DNA from: Caloramator sp.
GTDB taxonomy: Bacteria > Bacillota > Clostridia > Clostridiales > Caloramatoraceae
Direction: 5' to 3'
Length of the DNA stretch: 43,866 nucleotides
Assembly: GCA_026416875.1 (NCBI GenBank)
Contig: JAOAEI010000007.1
Location: 1-43,866, forward strand
The position numbers and the translations under genes are program-made. Shown piece by piece: positions 35,357 through 41,238 of this stretch; position 1 is the stretch's first letter, and the number at the start of each line of letters is the position of its first letter. Under the pieces are notes generated by a model. That model had not been told where the DNA came from. It did not search any database and worked only from the letters and a program-made list of their open reading frames with translations.

Positions 35357-35398
35357 ATCCTGGTGCTGGCGAAAGCTGGTGCCAGGATTTTTTTATTT
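35357..35398 (+). terminator. Terminator of the late operon
   Basis: Fourteen-pair stem including G-U pairs (ATCCTGGTGCTGGC with GCTGGTGCCAGGAT), GAAA tetraloop, then TTTTTTTATTTTTTT. Confidence 0.92.
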
Positions 35399-35402
35399 TT
35401 TT

Positions 35403-35429
35403 GCAGGAAAAAAAGGAAATGTGTAGAAA
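35403..35429 (+). promoter_or_regulatory. Sigma-H-type promoter (copy b), before the GHKL/STAS pair
   Basis: GCAGGAAAA, 11 bp, GTAGAAA: the -35 fits and the -10 differs from RnnGAAT at the last base. A TATAAT-like element further downstream (about 35447) could be a sigma-A alternative. Confidence 0.5.
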
Positions 35430-35511
35430 TAAATAAAATATAAATATAATTTAATTTTATGTTAATTAATCTAGCTTTAATTTTGTTTAAGTAAATGGGG
35501 GCAGAAATTAC

Positions 35512-36417
35512 ATGAAAAACATAAATATAGATTTTAGTAACATATGTTCTTTGGAGGAATTATTATATTTATTAGATATTCGTAATTGTTTAAATGAAGA
35601 AAAAATAAGATTAGATATTAACTTCCCTTGTGATAAAATGATTTACCCTGAATGGTTAGTTTCAATAGTAGGAACAGTTAAACACTTAGAAATGTCTGGC
35701 AAAGAAGTTTGTTTAAATATTATAAATAATGGTAATAATAATTACATATCAAGAATAAATTTTTACAAAGAGTTGGAAGTGGAATATGAAGAAAATTTTA
35801 ATAGATATGACAGTTCAGGAAGGTTTATTGAAATAACAAAATTTGATCAAATGAATAGTATAGATATTGTAAATAAAGCGATAAAGATAATTAAGGAACA
35901 TTGCGACTTAGACAAAAATGTTCTAGGAACATGGAATTATTGTTTATTTGAAATAGTTGATAACGTTCATAATCATGCAGATTCTTCCATTGACGGATAT
36001 GTTGTTATGCAAAATTACCCTAGAAATCGAGAAATAAGATGTGTTGTTTTAGATGCAGGTAAGGGAATTTATGAATCTTTATCTCAATCATCGAAATATA
36101 GGAACATAACTCCTGAAGAAGCTTTAAAATTGTCATTAGAAGCAGGAGTAACAAGAGGATATGGCAGAGGTAATGGGTTATATCATTTAAAAAATTTTAT
36201 TGTAGAAAATAATGGTGAACTTCAAATATTTTCATGTGGGCAAGTATTAAAATTGTCAAATAAAAAAATAGAAGTTGTAGATGGACCATATTGGCAAGGA
36301 ACGTTAATATATGTTAGAATAAATACACATAATGAAGTTGATTTGGATAAAGTATTTGGTGAAGATATACCTACATCTGTTTTAGAAGTTGATGAATGTA
36401 TTTATGATTTGTGGTAG
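35512..36417 (+). CDS. GHKL (HATPase_c) ATP-binding protein
   Basis: 301 aa. An N-terminal alpha/beta region (1-115) precedes a GHKL fold: N-box LFEIVDNVHNHADS (E147, N151), G1 DAGKGI (D181) and G2 GYGRGNGLYH (residues 216-225). No phospho-acceptor His domain or transmembrane segment, so it is an anti-sigma-kinase-type or sensor ATPase rather than a classical histidine kinase. The next gene encodes a STAS-like partner. GGGGGCAG ribosome site. Such pairs occur in bacterial genomes with unknown function. Confidence 0.82.
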   Translation: MKNINIDFSNICSLEELLYLLDIRNCLNEEKIRLDINFPCDKMIYPEWLVSIVGTVKHLEMSGKEVCLNIINNGNNNYISRINFYKELEVEYEENFNRYDSSGRFIEITKFDQMNSIDIVNKAIKIIKEHCDLDKNVLGTWNYCLFEIVDNVHNHADSSIDGYVVMQNYPRNREIRCVVLDAGKGIYESLSQSSKYRNITPEEALKLSLEAGVTRGYGRGNGLYHLKNFIVENNGELQIFSCGQVLKLSNKKIEVVDGPYWQGTLIYVRINTHNEVDLDKVFGEDIPTSVLEVDECIYDLW

Positions 36418-36428
36418 GAGGTGTAAAT

Positions 36429-36728
36429 ATGATTATAAGGTTTGCTGAATACGGGGAATCATTAGGCACAAGGTTTTTAGGGAAAAAAATAAGAGAAGAT
36501 GTAGTAAATAACTTAGATCATGAAGAAAAAATAGTTTTTGATTTAAGTGGTGTTGAACTCCTATCAAATTCTTTTGCAGATGAATGTTTTGGTAAATTAG
36601 TAGCTGACTTTGGGCTTGATTATATAAAAAGTAAAACGACTTTTGTAAATATTAATCCTATTGTAGGCAAAATAATAAAAAAGGCTATACTTGATAGAAT
36701 GAATGATATTGTAATGATAAGAAATTAG
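36429..36728 (+). CDS. STAS-like (DUF4325) protein
   Basis: 99 aa. KIVFDLSGVELLSNSFADEC holds the strand, turn and Ser region of STAS/DUF4325 proteins. In SpoIIAA-type proteins a Ser at this place is phosphorylated by the partner GHKL kinase; here serines lie in LLSNSF. Gene starts 11 nt after the GHKL stop with an AGGAGGTG site, so the two are co-expressed. Confidence 0.8.
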   Translation: MIIRFAEYGESLGTRFLGKKIREDVVNNLDHEEKIVFDLSGVELLSNSFADECFGKLVADFGLDYIKSKTTFVNINPIVGKIIKKAILDRMNDIVMIRN

Positions 36729-36735
36729 TATGTAT

Positions 36736-36762
36736 AAAAGCCTCATCGGGCTTTTTCTTTTT
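36736..36762 (+). terminator. Terminator after the GHKL/STAS pair
   Basis: AAAGCC/GGCTTT stem with a short loop followed by TTCTTTTT. Confidence 0.8.
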
Positions 36763-36789
36763 GAAGGAATTTCCACCTCAGCGTAGAAT
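36763..36789 (+). promoter_or_regulatory. Sigma-H-type promoter (copy d), before the HTH gene
   Basis: GAAGGAATT, 11 bp, GTAGAAT, a full match to RnAGGAwWW-N11/12-RnnGAAT. TATAAT at 36792-36797 lacks a matching -35. Confidence 0.68.
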
Positions 36790-37126: not shown

Positions 37127-37978
37127 ATGATACTTGGTGTAGATTTAGGCAATTATGCAACAAAGACATCGGAAGGTGTATCTTTTCTATCAAAAGTATC
37201 AAAAATCGGAAATATACTAAAGAATTCAATAGAGCTGCAAACTCACAATGGGACATTTTACATTGAGGAAGGGGAGTTTGACACAGAATACAGGAAGGTG
37301 CAAAAGCAAAATTTAAGAGAACTTTTTATTGCAGCAGTAGCATTAAGCACAGATGATATAGAAAATCAAATAGTTGTTGGGTTACCATTATCACAATATA
37401 AACAGGATAAAGAAATATTAAAAGAGTTGCTTACAAAAGAAAGGATACAATATATTGCTATAAATGGTGTAACAAAGAAGATAATTATAGAAGATGTAGA
37501 GGTGTATCCAGAAGGCCTTGGATCCGTTAATAACTTTGACGGAATAATAATTGATATAGGCGGAAGAACAACAGATATAGCAGAAATAGAGAACATGAAA
37601 GTTAGAAAACCTTTCAGTTTACCTGTTGGAACACTAAATTTATATAGTGATTTTATTAAAGTTATCAACGACAAATATTCATTAGACCTTAAACCACATG
37701 ATGCAAACAGAATATTAAAGAATGGGCTAAAGATTTTTGGTGAACAAAAAGATATTTCATTTGCATTAGAAGTTTTTAGGGAATATGTAGAAAAGATAAT
37801 TAGCGAACTACAAATAAATTACAGCATAAAAACACATGATATAAAGCTTACTGGCGGAGGAGCTGTGCTATTAGCAAAAGCCTTTATAAAAAGACTGCCT
37901 AATGCTGAAATAGTTGATAATCCTTTCTTTGCTAATGCAATAGGTTTTAAAAAGGTGGGTGAGTCGATATGGCTATGA
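37127..37978 (+). CDS. ParM/StbA-like actin-type partition protein
   Basis: 283 aa actin-fold ATPase: MILGVDLGNYATKTS (phosphate 1), IVVGLPLSQYKQDKE, GIIIDIGGRTTDIAEI (phosphate 2), and KLTGGGAVLLAKAF (adenosine motif). Polymerises to push plasmid copies apart. Start at 37127 with AAGGAGTG 9 nt upstream. A ParR-like gene overlaps its end. The AT-rich leader (37019-37126) with short repeated AAAATTT blocks may hold the centromere. Confidence 0.88.
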   Translation: MILGVDLGNYATKTSEGVSFLSKVSKIGNILKNSIELQTHNGTFYIEEGEFDTEYRKVQKQNLRELFIAAVALSTDDIENQIVVGLPLSQYKQDKEILKELLTKERIQYIAINGVTKKIIIEDVEVYPEGLGSVNNFDGIIIDIGGRTTDIAEIENMKVRKPFSLPVGTLNLYSDFIKVINDKYSLDLKPHDANRILKNGLKIFGEQKDISFALEVFREYVEKIISELQINYSIKTHDIKLTGGGAVLLAKAFIKRLPNAEIVDNPFFANAIGFKKVGESIWL

Positions 37979-38145
37979 AGATAAGTGTCAGCTTCAAAGA
38001 AAATGAAAAGCATATATACGAATACTTGATATCAAAGTTAAGTCCTTCAATTTATCTTAAAGAACTTATACTAAAAGAAATGAAGAATGAAGAACCAAAG
38101 CAGGAGAAAAAAAGGCAAAATTTATTCAATTCATTGGATATATAG
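37969..38145 (+). CDS. ParR-like adaptor (58 aa)
   Basis: MKISVSFKENEKHIYEYLIS resembles the ribbon-helix-helix start of ParR/StbB adaptors; the tail is basic (KQEKKRQNLFNSLDI). Overlaps parM by 10 bp with an AAAGGTGGG site. It should bind the centromere and the ParM filament end. Confidence 0.72.
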   Translation: MAMKISVSFKENEKHIYEYLISKLSPSIYLKELILKEMKNEEPKQEKKRQNLFNSLDI

Positions 38146-38177
38146 ACAAAATAAAAAGGCCTATAATGGCCTATCAA

Positions 38178-38220
38178 GCTTTACTGAGCTTTCGCTATTC
38201 GCTTCAGCTTTCAGTAAAGC
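38178..38220. repeat. 10-bp inverted repeat with repeated AGCTTTC blocks
   Basis: GCTTTACTGA (38178) and TCAGTAAAGC (38211) are perfect inverted repeats around AGCTTTCGCTATTCGCTTC. Further TATGCT/TTGCTA repeats follow to 38262. Possible centromere or nic region between ParR-like and the membrane/ATPase genes. No U-run, so not a normal terminator. Confidence 0.5.
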
Positions 38221-38269
38221 GTATGCTAAAAATTTTCAAAATATGCTATTTGTTGCTAAATCTTAACAA

Positions 38270-38344
38270 TTATTTTAGTAGTCTCATAAGTGCTTCACTT
38301 GCTACAACTACACCATAAGCGATCCAAAACAAAATTTTAATCAT
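38270..38344 (-). CDS. Possible 24-aa hydrophobic peptide
   Basis: Minus strand, GGGGTG ribosome site 6 nt before ATG 38344. Begins MIKILFWIAYGVVVA and ends ALMRLLK: one membrane helix with a basic end, like type I toxins or small phage membrane peptides. Very short, so only tentative. Confidence 0.35.
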   Translation of the reverse strand: MIKILFWIAYGVVVASEALMRLLK

Positions 38345-38417
38345 AAAAACACCCCATTTCTTTAAATTCAGTTATAGTATTCCCAATAAAATCAATTATA
38401 TTCAAGAGGAGGTTTGT

Positions 38418-38672
38418 ATGAATTGGTTAATTCTTTTAGCTGCAAATCCTAACTTAAGCAAAATCGACAAAGCTGGTTTATTGCTCTTAGGAATTGTAAG
38501 AAGAATCGGATACTGGGCTTGTATAATTCTCGCACTCATGGACATCGTGAAAAGCTTGATGGAGGGAAGCACAAAGGATGTTTGGAAAACAATAGCAAAA
38601 TACACAGTTGCATTTGCGACATTGTATTTGTTGCCTTGGCTGTTTGACCTTATTGCAAGTATTTTTTCATAG
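38418..38672 (+). CDS. Small two-helix membrane protein, VirB2/TrbC-like
   Basis: 84 aa: a first hydrophobic stretch (RIGYWACIILALMDIVKSLM), a short charged loop, and a second (IAKYTVAFATLYLLPWLFDL). This layout resembles VirB2/TrbC pilin-like subunits of conjugation systems. GAGGAGG ribosome site. Starts a three-gene unit with the ATPase gene. Confidence 0.6.
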   Translation: MNWLILLAANPNLSKIDKAGLLLLGIVRRIGYWACIILALMDIVKSLMEGSTKDVWKTIAKYTVAFATLYLLPWLFDLIASIFS

Positions 38673-38683
38673 AAGGTGATAGA

Positions 38684-38926
38684 ATGCAGCAAATTAAAGA
38701 AGCATTGCTTGTTATAAAAGAGCTATTTCTTTATATCTTGCACCCAAGCTGGATCTTTATTGATATTTGGAATTGGTTTGTTGAGAGAAGCTATATCATG
38801 TGTCTTTTGATAGCTATATTTAGCTATTTGTTAGCTTTGCTTGGGTATAAGAAGTTTTTAAAAGTAATTCCGCTGAGCATCTGTCTATATATCCTATTCC
38901 AAGCAATAGGAGTGATAAAAAGATGA
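38684..38926 (+). CDS. Small membrane protein (80 aa)
   Basis: Two or three hydrophobic segments (YIMCLLIAIFSYLLALLGY, VIPLSICLYILFQAIGVI). Ends with an ATGA overlap with the ATPase gene. No family recognised. Confidence 0.65.
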   Translation: MQQIKEALLVIKELFLYILHPSWIFIDIWNWFVERSYIMCLLIAIFSYLLALLGYKKFLKVIPLSICLYILFQAIGVIKR

Positions 38927-41238
38927 AAAGCATGAAGATCAGCGAATACTTTAAAGTTGTTCATCCTAAGTATGTTATTCTTCAAGTTATTCCTGATACA
39001 TCAATACGCAATTACAACAGCTCCAACATCGCTGGAGCTATTGCGAGGATGTATAAAGGGATATTTGAGAGAATAAAAAAGATAGAAAAACAATATGTAG
39101 TTGAAACGCCTTGCAAAGTTGCATTTTTCATTGATATTAGAAAAACATCAGTTAATTTTTACTTTATTGTTCCTGAGCAATACGAACGATTAGCACGAGA
39201 AAAAATTATTGAAACATGGCCTAAAGCAACTATTGAGGTAGTTGAGAGCATTCAGCAATTTTCAGACAAGGCACTAAAATATCAACTTAGATACACAAAA
39301 GAGGATGCTCTCTCTCTTAATGTAGATAAGCGAAATAACGAGCCACTAAATAATATTTTAAGTGTAATTGATGTAATGGAGGAAGGGGATAGGGTAGGTA
39401 TATTCTATAACTTTATTCCTGTATCTCAACGTGGCTGGAGAAAAGAATACGAAACAACAATACAAAAGATAAAAAATAATGAGCCTATCGATAAGAATAA
39501 GTTTGATAAAGTTTATATAATAAAAGTAACAATCATTACTTTATTACAAATATTGCAGGACATTATAAGTGCAGTAATGGAAGTTTTCGGAGACGAAAAG
39601 AAACAAAATTTAGGAGTATTTGAAGCAGCAATAACATCCTTGATTATTGATGATAAGAAAAAGCTTTCGAATGCGACAATAAAAAAGAAAGATAACACAG
39701 TTGTAGCAACTCAAATGATAATATTAAGCGAAAGTGAAAATAACAATAGGAAGGTAAACAACGCAGTTGCAGTATTGGAAGCATATAAAACAATATCCGA
39801 AGATAACGAATTACATTACGAGAGACTAAATAGTAATTTAGTTTATACTGATTACAAAGTAAAAGGTGCTGATGAAAATAAACTTAGTATAGACGAATGC
39901 CAAAATTTAATTCAGCTCCCAGGACGAGAATTGTTATACAAATATGATTGCATTAGAAAAATTGAAACACTGGAAATTGATATACCTGCTGAATTAAGAC
40001 AAGGGACTAAATTAATTGGAATAGCAACTTATAAGGGGATACAACAAGCTGCATACTTTACGACTGATAAAGATTATAAGAACTTAGCAATAGTTTATAT
40101 TGGACCAACAAGATCAGGTAAAACGACAGCACTTGCTAATTATTGTAGGGATAGTATAAACGCAGGTGAAAGCATAGTTGTTTTAGATTATATTGAAAAT
40201 TGTTCACTATCAGAAAGTATAAAACAATATGTGCGAAAAGATAAAATAATTGAAATAGACTTAGGTCAATTTAATAAAATTGAAGGCTTTGGATATAATG
40301 AATTAGATATACCTACTAATGATGTGTTAGAACAATACAATAACGCTAAACTCAAAACTAATCAGCTTGAATATCTTATTAATTCAATTAATGATGAGAA
40401 TAGCGAATTTACTGCAAGAATGGAAAAATATTTAGACGCAGCAGCAATTGTAGGATTTATAAACAGTGGGAAAGTAAAAGATGTATTTGATATACTTGAA
40501 AATCATGAGAAAAGACATTATTTTATTAGAAAAACACCACAGGTTTATAAACAATATGTGGATGATTATATAAACGCATTATTTGAGCTTGATGAGATTA
40601 ATAAAGCAGGTGAAATTGTAGGGACAAAGATGAGCCTAATAACAGGAATATTATCGAGAGTTAATAAACTAAAGAAAAACACAGTTATGGAGCTTATGCT
40701 TAAAAAAGATACTAAATATAACATTAACTTAGTAAAAGAACTACAAAAAGGTAAAGCAATTTTTATAAAAATGCCAGAAGATAAATTCAATACATCTGAG
40801 GAAAGAGATATAATTACAACATATTGGCTTACTAAGATATGGCTTGCACTTCAAATTAGAGCTTCGAAAATACCCAACAGATATGATAGAACAACGGTTA
40901 ATATAATTACAGATGAGCTTAATCAATTAAGTTCTGCTCAAATGTTTGTAGGGAATAAGTTGGATCAATGTGCTAAGTTTGGAGGAAAATTTATTATTTC
41001 TACAATGTATATTAATCAACTGAAGATAAGGGAAAAGCTTAGAACAGCTAATACGAGTTATATAATAATAAGTGGAGCAGACAAAACAAATTTTTATGAA
41101 TTAAAAGAGGAACTAACATCATTTGGATTTACACTTGAGGATATGATGAGAATGCAAAGGTATCATAGTTTAAATTTAATCAAATATGAGAAAGGATATG
41201 TTGCATTTATTTCAAAACTTCCCCCACCATTAAAATAG
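38923..41238 (+). CDS. VirD4/HerA-FtsK superfamily ATPase
   Basis: 771 aa. A long N-terminal region (1-385) begins with HPKYVILQVIPDTSIRNYNS, which I associate with Gram-positive conjugation-type proteins. The RecA-like motor has Walker A GPTRSGKTT (about 394-402) and Walker B VNIITDEL (D664, E665), then ISTMYINQLKIREKLRTANT, typical of coupling ATPases that pump DNA or protein. A hydrophobic stretch near VTIITLLQILQDIISAVMEV may anchor it. With the two small membrane proteins upstream it forms a coherent unit; no relaxase is present. Confidence 0.72.
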   Translation: MKSMKISEYFKVVHPKYVILQVIPDTSIRNYNSSNIAGAIARMYKGIFERIKKIEKQYVVETPCKVAFFIDIRKTSVNFYFIVPEQYERLAREKIIETWPKATIEVVESIQQFSDKALKYQLRYTKEDALSLNVDKRNNEPLNNILSVIDVMEEGDRVGIFYNFIPVSQRGWRKEYETTIQKIKNNEPIDKNKFDKVYIIKVTIITLLQILQDIISAVMEVFGDEKKQNLGVFEAAITSLIIDDKKKLSNATIKKKDNTVVATQMIILSESENNNRKVNNAVAVLEAYKTISEDNELHYERLNSNLVYTDYKVKGADENKLSIDECQNLIQLPGRELLYKYDCIRKIETLEIDIPAELRQGTKLIGIATYKGIQQAAYFTTDKDYKNLAIVYIGPTRSGKTTALANYCRDSINAGESIVVLDYIENCSLSESIKQYVRKDKIIEIDLGQFNKIEGFGYNELDIPTNDVLEQYNNAKLKTNQLEYLINSINDENSEFTARMEKYLDAAAIVGFINSGKVKDVFDILENHEKRHYFIRKTPQVYKQYVDDYINALFELDEINKAGEIVGTKMSLITGILSRVNKLKKNTVMELMLKKDTKYNINLVKELQKGKAIFIKMPEDKFNTSEERDIITTYWLTKIWLALQIRASKIPNRYDRTTVNIITDELNQLSSAQMFVGNKLDQCAKFGGKFIISTMYINQLKIREKLRTANTSYIIISGADKTNFYELKEELTSFGFTLEDMMRMQRYHSLNLIKYEKGYVAFISKLPPPLK

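Follow-up and report, generated by a model that had tools for sequence, protein, structure and literature searches.

What does a phage gain from a kinase and a STAS-like protein placed behind its lysis genes? This question is raised by two adjacent genes in a 43,866-nucleotide stretch of a Caloramator sp. contig (JAOAEI010000007.1), the whole of which is referred to here as the window. The original prediction read the two, from sequence, as a GHKL ATPase and a DUF4325 STAS-like protein resembling a partner switch, and both genes are indeed present. The features of the locus are as follows.

35357..35388, + strand: intrinsic terminator of the lysis unit, with a 14-pair stem, a 4-base loop and a T run
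35403..35431, + strand: sigma-H-type promoter-like site, GCAGGAAAA-N12-GTAGAAA, one mismatch
35512..36417, + strand: ORF1, kinase gene, 301 aa, with a STAS-topology domain at about 1-100 and a SpoIIAB-type GHKL domain at about 102-275
36429..36728, + strand: ORF2, bare DUF4325/STAS gene, 99 aa, predicted phospho-acceptor Ser48 in LLSNSFADE
36736..36755, + strand: intrinsic terminator ending the ORF1-ORF2 unit

For ORF2, the ATG at 36429, with AGGAGG just 5' of it, is preferred over the GTG at 36411. Three terminator-like sites are found at the locus, compared with 0.2 expected, and the terminators at 35357-35388 and 36736-36755 bound ORF1 and ORF2 as one unit, in agreement with the earlier claim that the pair is independent of its surroundings. 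The gene that follows encodes a 65-aa XRE regulator and lies behind the second terminator with a promoter-like site of its own. No RNA element was found at the ORF1-ORF2 locus with Rfam, and there is no sigma factor gene among the neighbours of the pair in the window.

The surrounding prophage spans approximately 1946 to 41386 (about 39 kb) and looks intact. These bounds derive from comparison with the empty site, which is found both in a genome of the same genus and on a second contig of this MAG; the comparison joins window position 1946 to about 41375. The prophage-free site within the MAG (L078) is about 92-93% identical, and the bin therefore mixes strains. Its left end carries a serine integrase, followed in order by the genes for terminase, portal, capsid, tape measure and lysis; the genes upstream of the pair encode a BhlA holin, an amidase/SH3 endolysin and a 143-aa membrane-protein-like product. 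ORF1 and ORF2 follow the lysis genes directly, about 5 kb short of the right end, and are thus prophage genes at a location where lysogenic-conversion cargo is typically carried. The original prediction had called this a classic post-lysis cargo site, and the position does recur in unrelated phages. Between the lysis genes and attR, the stretch 37127-41238 also encodes a ParM-like actin and an ATPase of 771 aa (phrog_5156) that matches mad8 weakly.

The closest characterized counterparts are CapK/CapS and VapK/VapS/VapC, in which DNA-damage-linked serine kinases act on STAS proteins in immunity (EMBO J 2026, PMC13373217). CapK, composed of HTH, STAS and GHKL domains, is activated by ssDNA and phosphorylates CapS, a STAS-winged-helix protein, which then leaves the promoter of immune operons; VapK-VapS-VapC follows a like logic in which a PIN toxin is freed (PMC13373217). 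Mutants of VapS place its action at Ser48 (VapS numbering), and an aromatic residue is needed in both kinases, W68 of CapK for activation by ssDNA and F54 of VapK for protection (PMC13373217).

ORF1 matches the RsbW/SpoIIAB-type ATPase model HATPase_c_2 (PF13581) at E 1.6e-4, below the Pfam cut-off, and phrog_3364, a family listed without assigned function, at E 4e-33 over nearly its full length. Its AlphaFold2 model (pLDDT 88.6, pTM 0.89) places residues 1-100 in a beta-alpha STAS-like topology and residues 102-275 in a GHKL fold. The top structural match is the SpoIIAB-SpoIIAA complex 1til (Z 15.2, 133 residues, rmsd 2.7), with SpoIIAB structures at Z 15.2 to 14.4 and the mycobacterial UsfX-RsfB and sigF complexes at about 12. 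Outside the anti-sigma kinases, matches reach at most Z 11.5 (histidine kinases, MutL and gyrase at about 11 or less), and the proposed likeness to SpoIIAB is upheld by this ranking. All GHKL catalytic residues are retained (E147, N151 and H155; D181-x-G183-x-G185; G220-x-G222; G263-T264), and the N-box E147/N151/H155, D181 and G183 of DxGxG, G220 and G222 of GxG, and G263 are invariant in ten divergent homologues. Furthermore, the kinase profile and a Deinococcus VapK, which belongs to a VapK-VapS-PIN operon, align over 238 columns (E 8e-15). From these features we infer kinase activity, and we regard it as fairly likely that ORF1 belongs to the CapK/VapK family of Ser/Thr protein kinases.

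The N-terminal domain of about 100 residues adds to the original description of ORF1. Its topology and its alignment to Deinococcus VapK suggest that it may be a STAS domain; the fold comparison of ORF1 barely covered it, its profile comparison with DUF4325 was not significant, and its sequence retrieved no STAS protein from the PDB. At the column to which CapK W68 and VapK F54 appear to map, by alignment via W53 of a Deinococcus VapK, the family mostly carries Phe, and Met is found in ORF1 (Met43) and in the Clostridioides phages. A PADLOC call of the DISARM component 'DrmA' (PDLC02567) for 35512-36728 was rejected, as the match is limited to the first ~400 of the 1750 positions in the model. 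This front part of PDLC02567 matches kinase and STAS proteins, which may cause false DrmA calls.

ORF2 exceeds the cut-off for DUF4325 (PF14213, E 9e-16) and falls below that for the classical STAS family of SpoIIAA (PF01740, 15.5 bits against 22.6), and its family profile matches the solved structure of Escherichia VapS in the PDB at E 1.3e-16. The host SpoIIAA segment FDFSGVNFMDSSG lies opposite FDLSGVELLSNSF of ORF2, and a gapless alignment pairs Ser48 with the second serine of DSS, the phospho-serine of SpoIIAA. Ser48 is present in 27 of 30 bare pairs (many of them related Flavobacteriia, with L025/L026 and L008/L105 as repeats), in 7/7 kinase-STAS fusions (of which L100 and L114 are one protein) and in 3/3 STAS-winged-helix partners, compared with 1 of 14 DUF4325 proteins without an adjacent kinase. 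Glu52 has the same counts in the three kinase-associated groups and occurs in none of the 14. This motif tracks the kinase neighbour, as expected of a kinase-substrate relation. Position 48 is Ala in three bare STAS proteins from a single lineage, which retain T46-S47. In stand-alone DUF4325 proteins of clostridial chromosomes (L011-L017, at the centre of each locus), which lie without a kinase in a conserved neighbourhood of glutamate racemase and peptidyl-prolyl isomerase genes, the phospho-serine position is mostly Thr.

We favour Ser48 as the probable phosphosite of ORF2. The phospho-serine of VapS falls one column earlier in the gapless alignment, so that use of Ser46, or a shift of the loop, is possible. 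Kinase and STAS domains are naturally fused at several loci, which supports a physical interaction of the two; one such fusion, folded for a docked serine, reached a pLDDT of 60.6, too poor for geometry. Pairwise dN/dS values of about 0.12 for two Clostridioides phage copies, with few changes between them, and about 0.06 for one Flavobacterium pair are indicative of purifying selection. The fold, the catalytic residues and the coupling of Ser48 to the kinase thus bear out the partner-switch reading at the level of sequence, with complex formation and use of the phosphosite as its predicted consequences.

The survey proposed for other phages shows the pair recurring as cargo in unrelated ones. 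In C. celatum and C. saudiense it occupies the prophage end, following two serine recombinases; it is also present in Clostridioides phages, behind the lysin in group B Streptococcus phages and, in a Bacteroides phage, some genes after the annotated endolysin. Marinitoga phage MPV1 has it next to integrase and lysis genes, and another Bacillota prophage (L102) next to the endolysin. In a further prophage (L114) a fusion of kinase and STAS immediately follows holin-peptidase-holin, and on a Bacteroidota phage contig (L115) such a fusion adjoins lysis genes. A 293-aa hypothetical protein and a DUF4325 protein encoded between repressor and integrase of Francisella phage KIRK (PMC7924643) look like another such pair. 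Bare pairs are also carried by Alicyclobacillus and Sulfobacillus plasmids and by Flavobacteriia chromosomes. A single-protein search of viral contigs and a search with the fusion L009 gave no match. The close family is rare, occurring in 6 of 391 genomes of the class, and the wider family in 17 of 398 genomes of the phylum. Phage forms fall at several places on the kinase tree, whose deeper branches are weak; acquisition by phages has therefore probably been repeated.

Relatives are situated in immune or DNA-damage contexts. A type I restriction locus (L009:2029-7112) has a kinase-STAS fusion gene flanked by its HsdR- and HsdM-like genes, and another relative precedes an N6-methylase and a TIR gene. 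In several Bacillota genomes (L103:2623-4106, L109:4278-5913, L110:4288-5977), related kinase and STAS genes stand directly before recA-recX with cinA upstream; their STAS proteins retain the serine and carry a C-terminal winged-helix-like part as in CapS, making a chromosomal DNA-damage switch in the recA operon possible. Archaeal prophage psiM100 carries, in insert IFa (L119:3505-6297), a kinase, a DUF4325 protein and a 492-aa protein that has a PIN-like stretch at its start and a match to PDC-M11A, a candidate defence model of PADLOC. This arrangement reads as archaeal VapKSC-like cargo and indicates that phages also carry an effector-bearing version. Other arrangements, some assigned by eye, include a kinase without STAS partner between cinA and phosphotransacylase/butyrate-kinase-like genes (L106:5004-5855, L107:4978-5832; by eye), a kinase-STAS pair between tnsD/tniQ- and tnsA/tnsB-like genes of a Tn7-like element (L108:4742-6273; by eye), and two small STAS-like proteins with a Fic-like protein and no kinase between a specificity-subunit-like gene and HsdR (L018:1-3174).

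The gene identities, the fold, the intact catalytic residues, the conserved serine and the recurrence as phage cargo follow from these sequence comparisons, and we consider it probable that ORF1 and ORF2 form a phospho-switch, carried as prophage cargo, whose target is encoded elsewhere. Unphosphorylated ORF2 would bind and restrain a target protein. By analogy with CapK, the trigger of ORF1 would most likely be DNA damage, or ssDNA, arising during infection. ORF1 would then phosphorylate ORF2 at Ser48, or possibly Ser46; phosphorylation would break the ORF2-target complex and free the target. The latter is not encoded beside the pair and is probably a protein of the host or of a distant part of the prophage. 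Trigger, target and benefit are our guesses, the trigger being uncertain because the ssDNA-contact aromatic appears as Met43 in ORF1. For the phage, the benefit would most likely be lysogenic conversion, with a lysogen that withstands stress or superinfection; this gain, under DNA damage or superinfection, is much less certain than the switch itself.

Sporulation offers a different target. The kinase or the STAS protein could plug into the SpoIIAA-SpoIIAB-sigma-F switch of the host and, driven by sigma-H, delay or redirect sporulation, as the original prediction had suggested. The host, a spore-forming clostridium, encodes spoIIAA, spoIIAB and the sigma factor, the ORF1 kinase fold is nearest to SpoIIAB, and the site at 35403 is one mismatch from RNAGGAWWW-N11-12-RNNGAAT, a near-match contained in about 0.15% of local shuffles. 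An exact site occurs at 36763-36789, directly upstream of the XRE gene. Genome-wide, the exact pattern has 81 copies compared with 28 for the reversed control, one of them just upstream of host spoIIAA; this enrichment and the spoIIAA copy make sigma-H control believable for this prophage, and at 35403 it is plausible. The proposed promoter thus stands as a near-consensus site, but inspection by eye showed none upstream of the relatives, and it cannot carry the functional argument. Moreover, many non-spore-formers, as well as phages of these, have homologous pairs, with relatives known from Streptococcus, Bacteroides, Marinitoga, Flavobacteriia and Nostoc; the pair has no linked sigma factor, ORF2 belongs to DUF4325 and lies under the cut-off for SpoIIAA's family, and ORF1 has the additional domain of the CapK/VapK type. 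As the effector-less pair or fusion recurs in phages of Clostridium, Streptococcus, Marinitoga and others, a sporulation-specific role is improbable.

Stand-alone defence, in which superinfecting phage is blocked by the pair itself or by the pair together with some general nuclease of the host (an unlinked PIN toxin, for example), is a possible but doubtful reading. VapKSC gives E. coli about 100-fold protection from a phage (PMC13373217), the pair occupies a phage-cargo position, relatives lie near restriction genes and TIR, and psiM100 combines kinase, STAS and a PIN-type protein; yet no toxin-like partner was found beside the bare pairs in the phages and Flavobacteriia examined, and ORF2 is devoid of the VapS tail needed to hold VapC. 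The suggestion of a defence system is therefore backed circumstantially by relatives that regulate immune operons or control toxins, whereas the window locus has no effector. The switch could instead sense damage on behalf of the prophage and set the timing of induction or lysis, given the adjoining lysis genes and the XRE-type regulator gene with its own sigma-H-type promoter. This we judge unlikely, for the pair is a separate transcription unit with terminators on both sides, and the module is absent from most phages, moves between phage families and lacks conserved neighbours. That ORF2, as a VapS relative, acts as a decoy neutralizing VapC-type toxins of the host is very improbable: it is encoded with a kinase that should switch it off, it lacks the toxin-blocking tail, and no second DUF4325 copy was found in the host genome (78% complete). 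The cargo switch with an unlinked target remains our preferred reading.

Compared with SpoIIAB-SpoIIAA-sigma F and UsfX-RsfB, the pair shares the kinase-domain fold and the phospho-serine position, but differs in the N-terminal domain of ORF1, a sensor-like addition common to CapK and VapK and not to SpoIIAB, in a DUF4325 instead of a classical STAS substrate, in its kinase-first gene order, and in lacking a sigma factor, with relatives in non-spore-formers. With CapKS it has in common the two-gene arrangement of a STAS-GHKL serine kinase and a STAS substrate. CapK, however, carries an N-terminal HTH where ORF1 begins at its STAS-topology domain, and the winged helix of CapS and the downstream immune operon are both absent here. 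VapKSC (PMC13373217; PDB 9z7o) is alike in its STAS-GHKL kinase without HTH adjoining a DUF4325 protein, its conserved loop serine and its mobile or phage-related contexts. In contrast to the pair, VapKSC has a PIN toxin gene directly downstream and an antitoxin tail (residues 94-116 of Escherichia VapS) required to hold VapC, whereas ORF2 ends at the STAS domain; its phospho-serine is offset by one column from Ser48, and the probable ssDNA-contact aromatic appears to be replaced by Met in ORF1.

ORF1 thus appears to be the same kind of kinase as VapK. Lacking the defining output features of CapKS and VapKSC, the pair would work like both but belongs to neither. CapKS and VapKSC are immune regulators with built-in outputs; the bare pair, which recurs in chromosomes and among the cargo of several phage lineages, indicates that the switch also travels without one. 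Unlinked partners are therefore predicted and can be fished for directly, and phrog_3364 and its DUF4325 partners gain a testable function, down to the phospho-site. More tentatively, the bare pairs may constitute a third, effector-less branch of the CapK/VapK type, spread by phages and comprising sensor and switch only, which taps an unlinked host protein; a phage would then control the stress or immune response of its lysogen through a sigma factor, a toxin or an immune effector, where CapKS and VapKSC bring their outputs with them.
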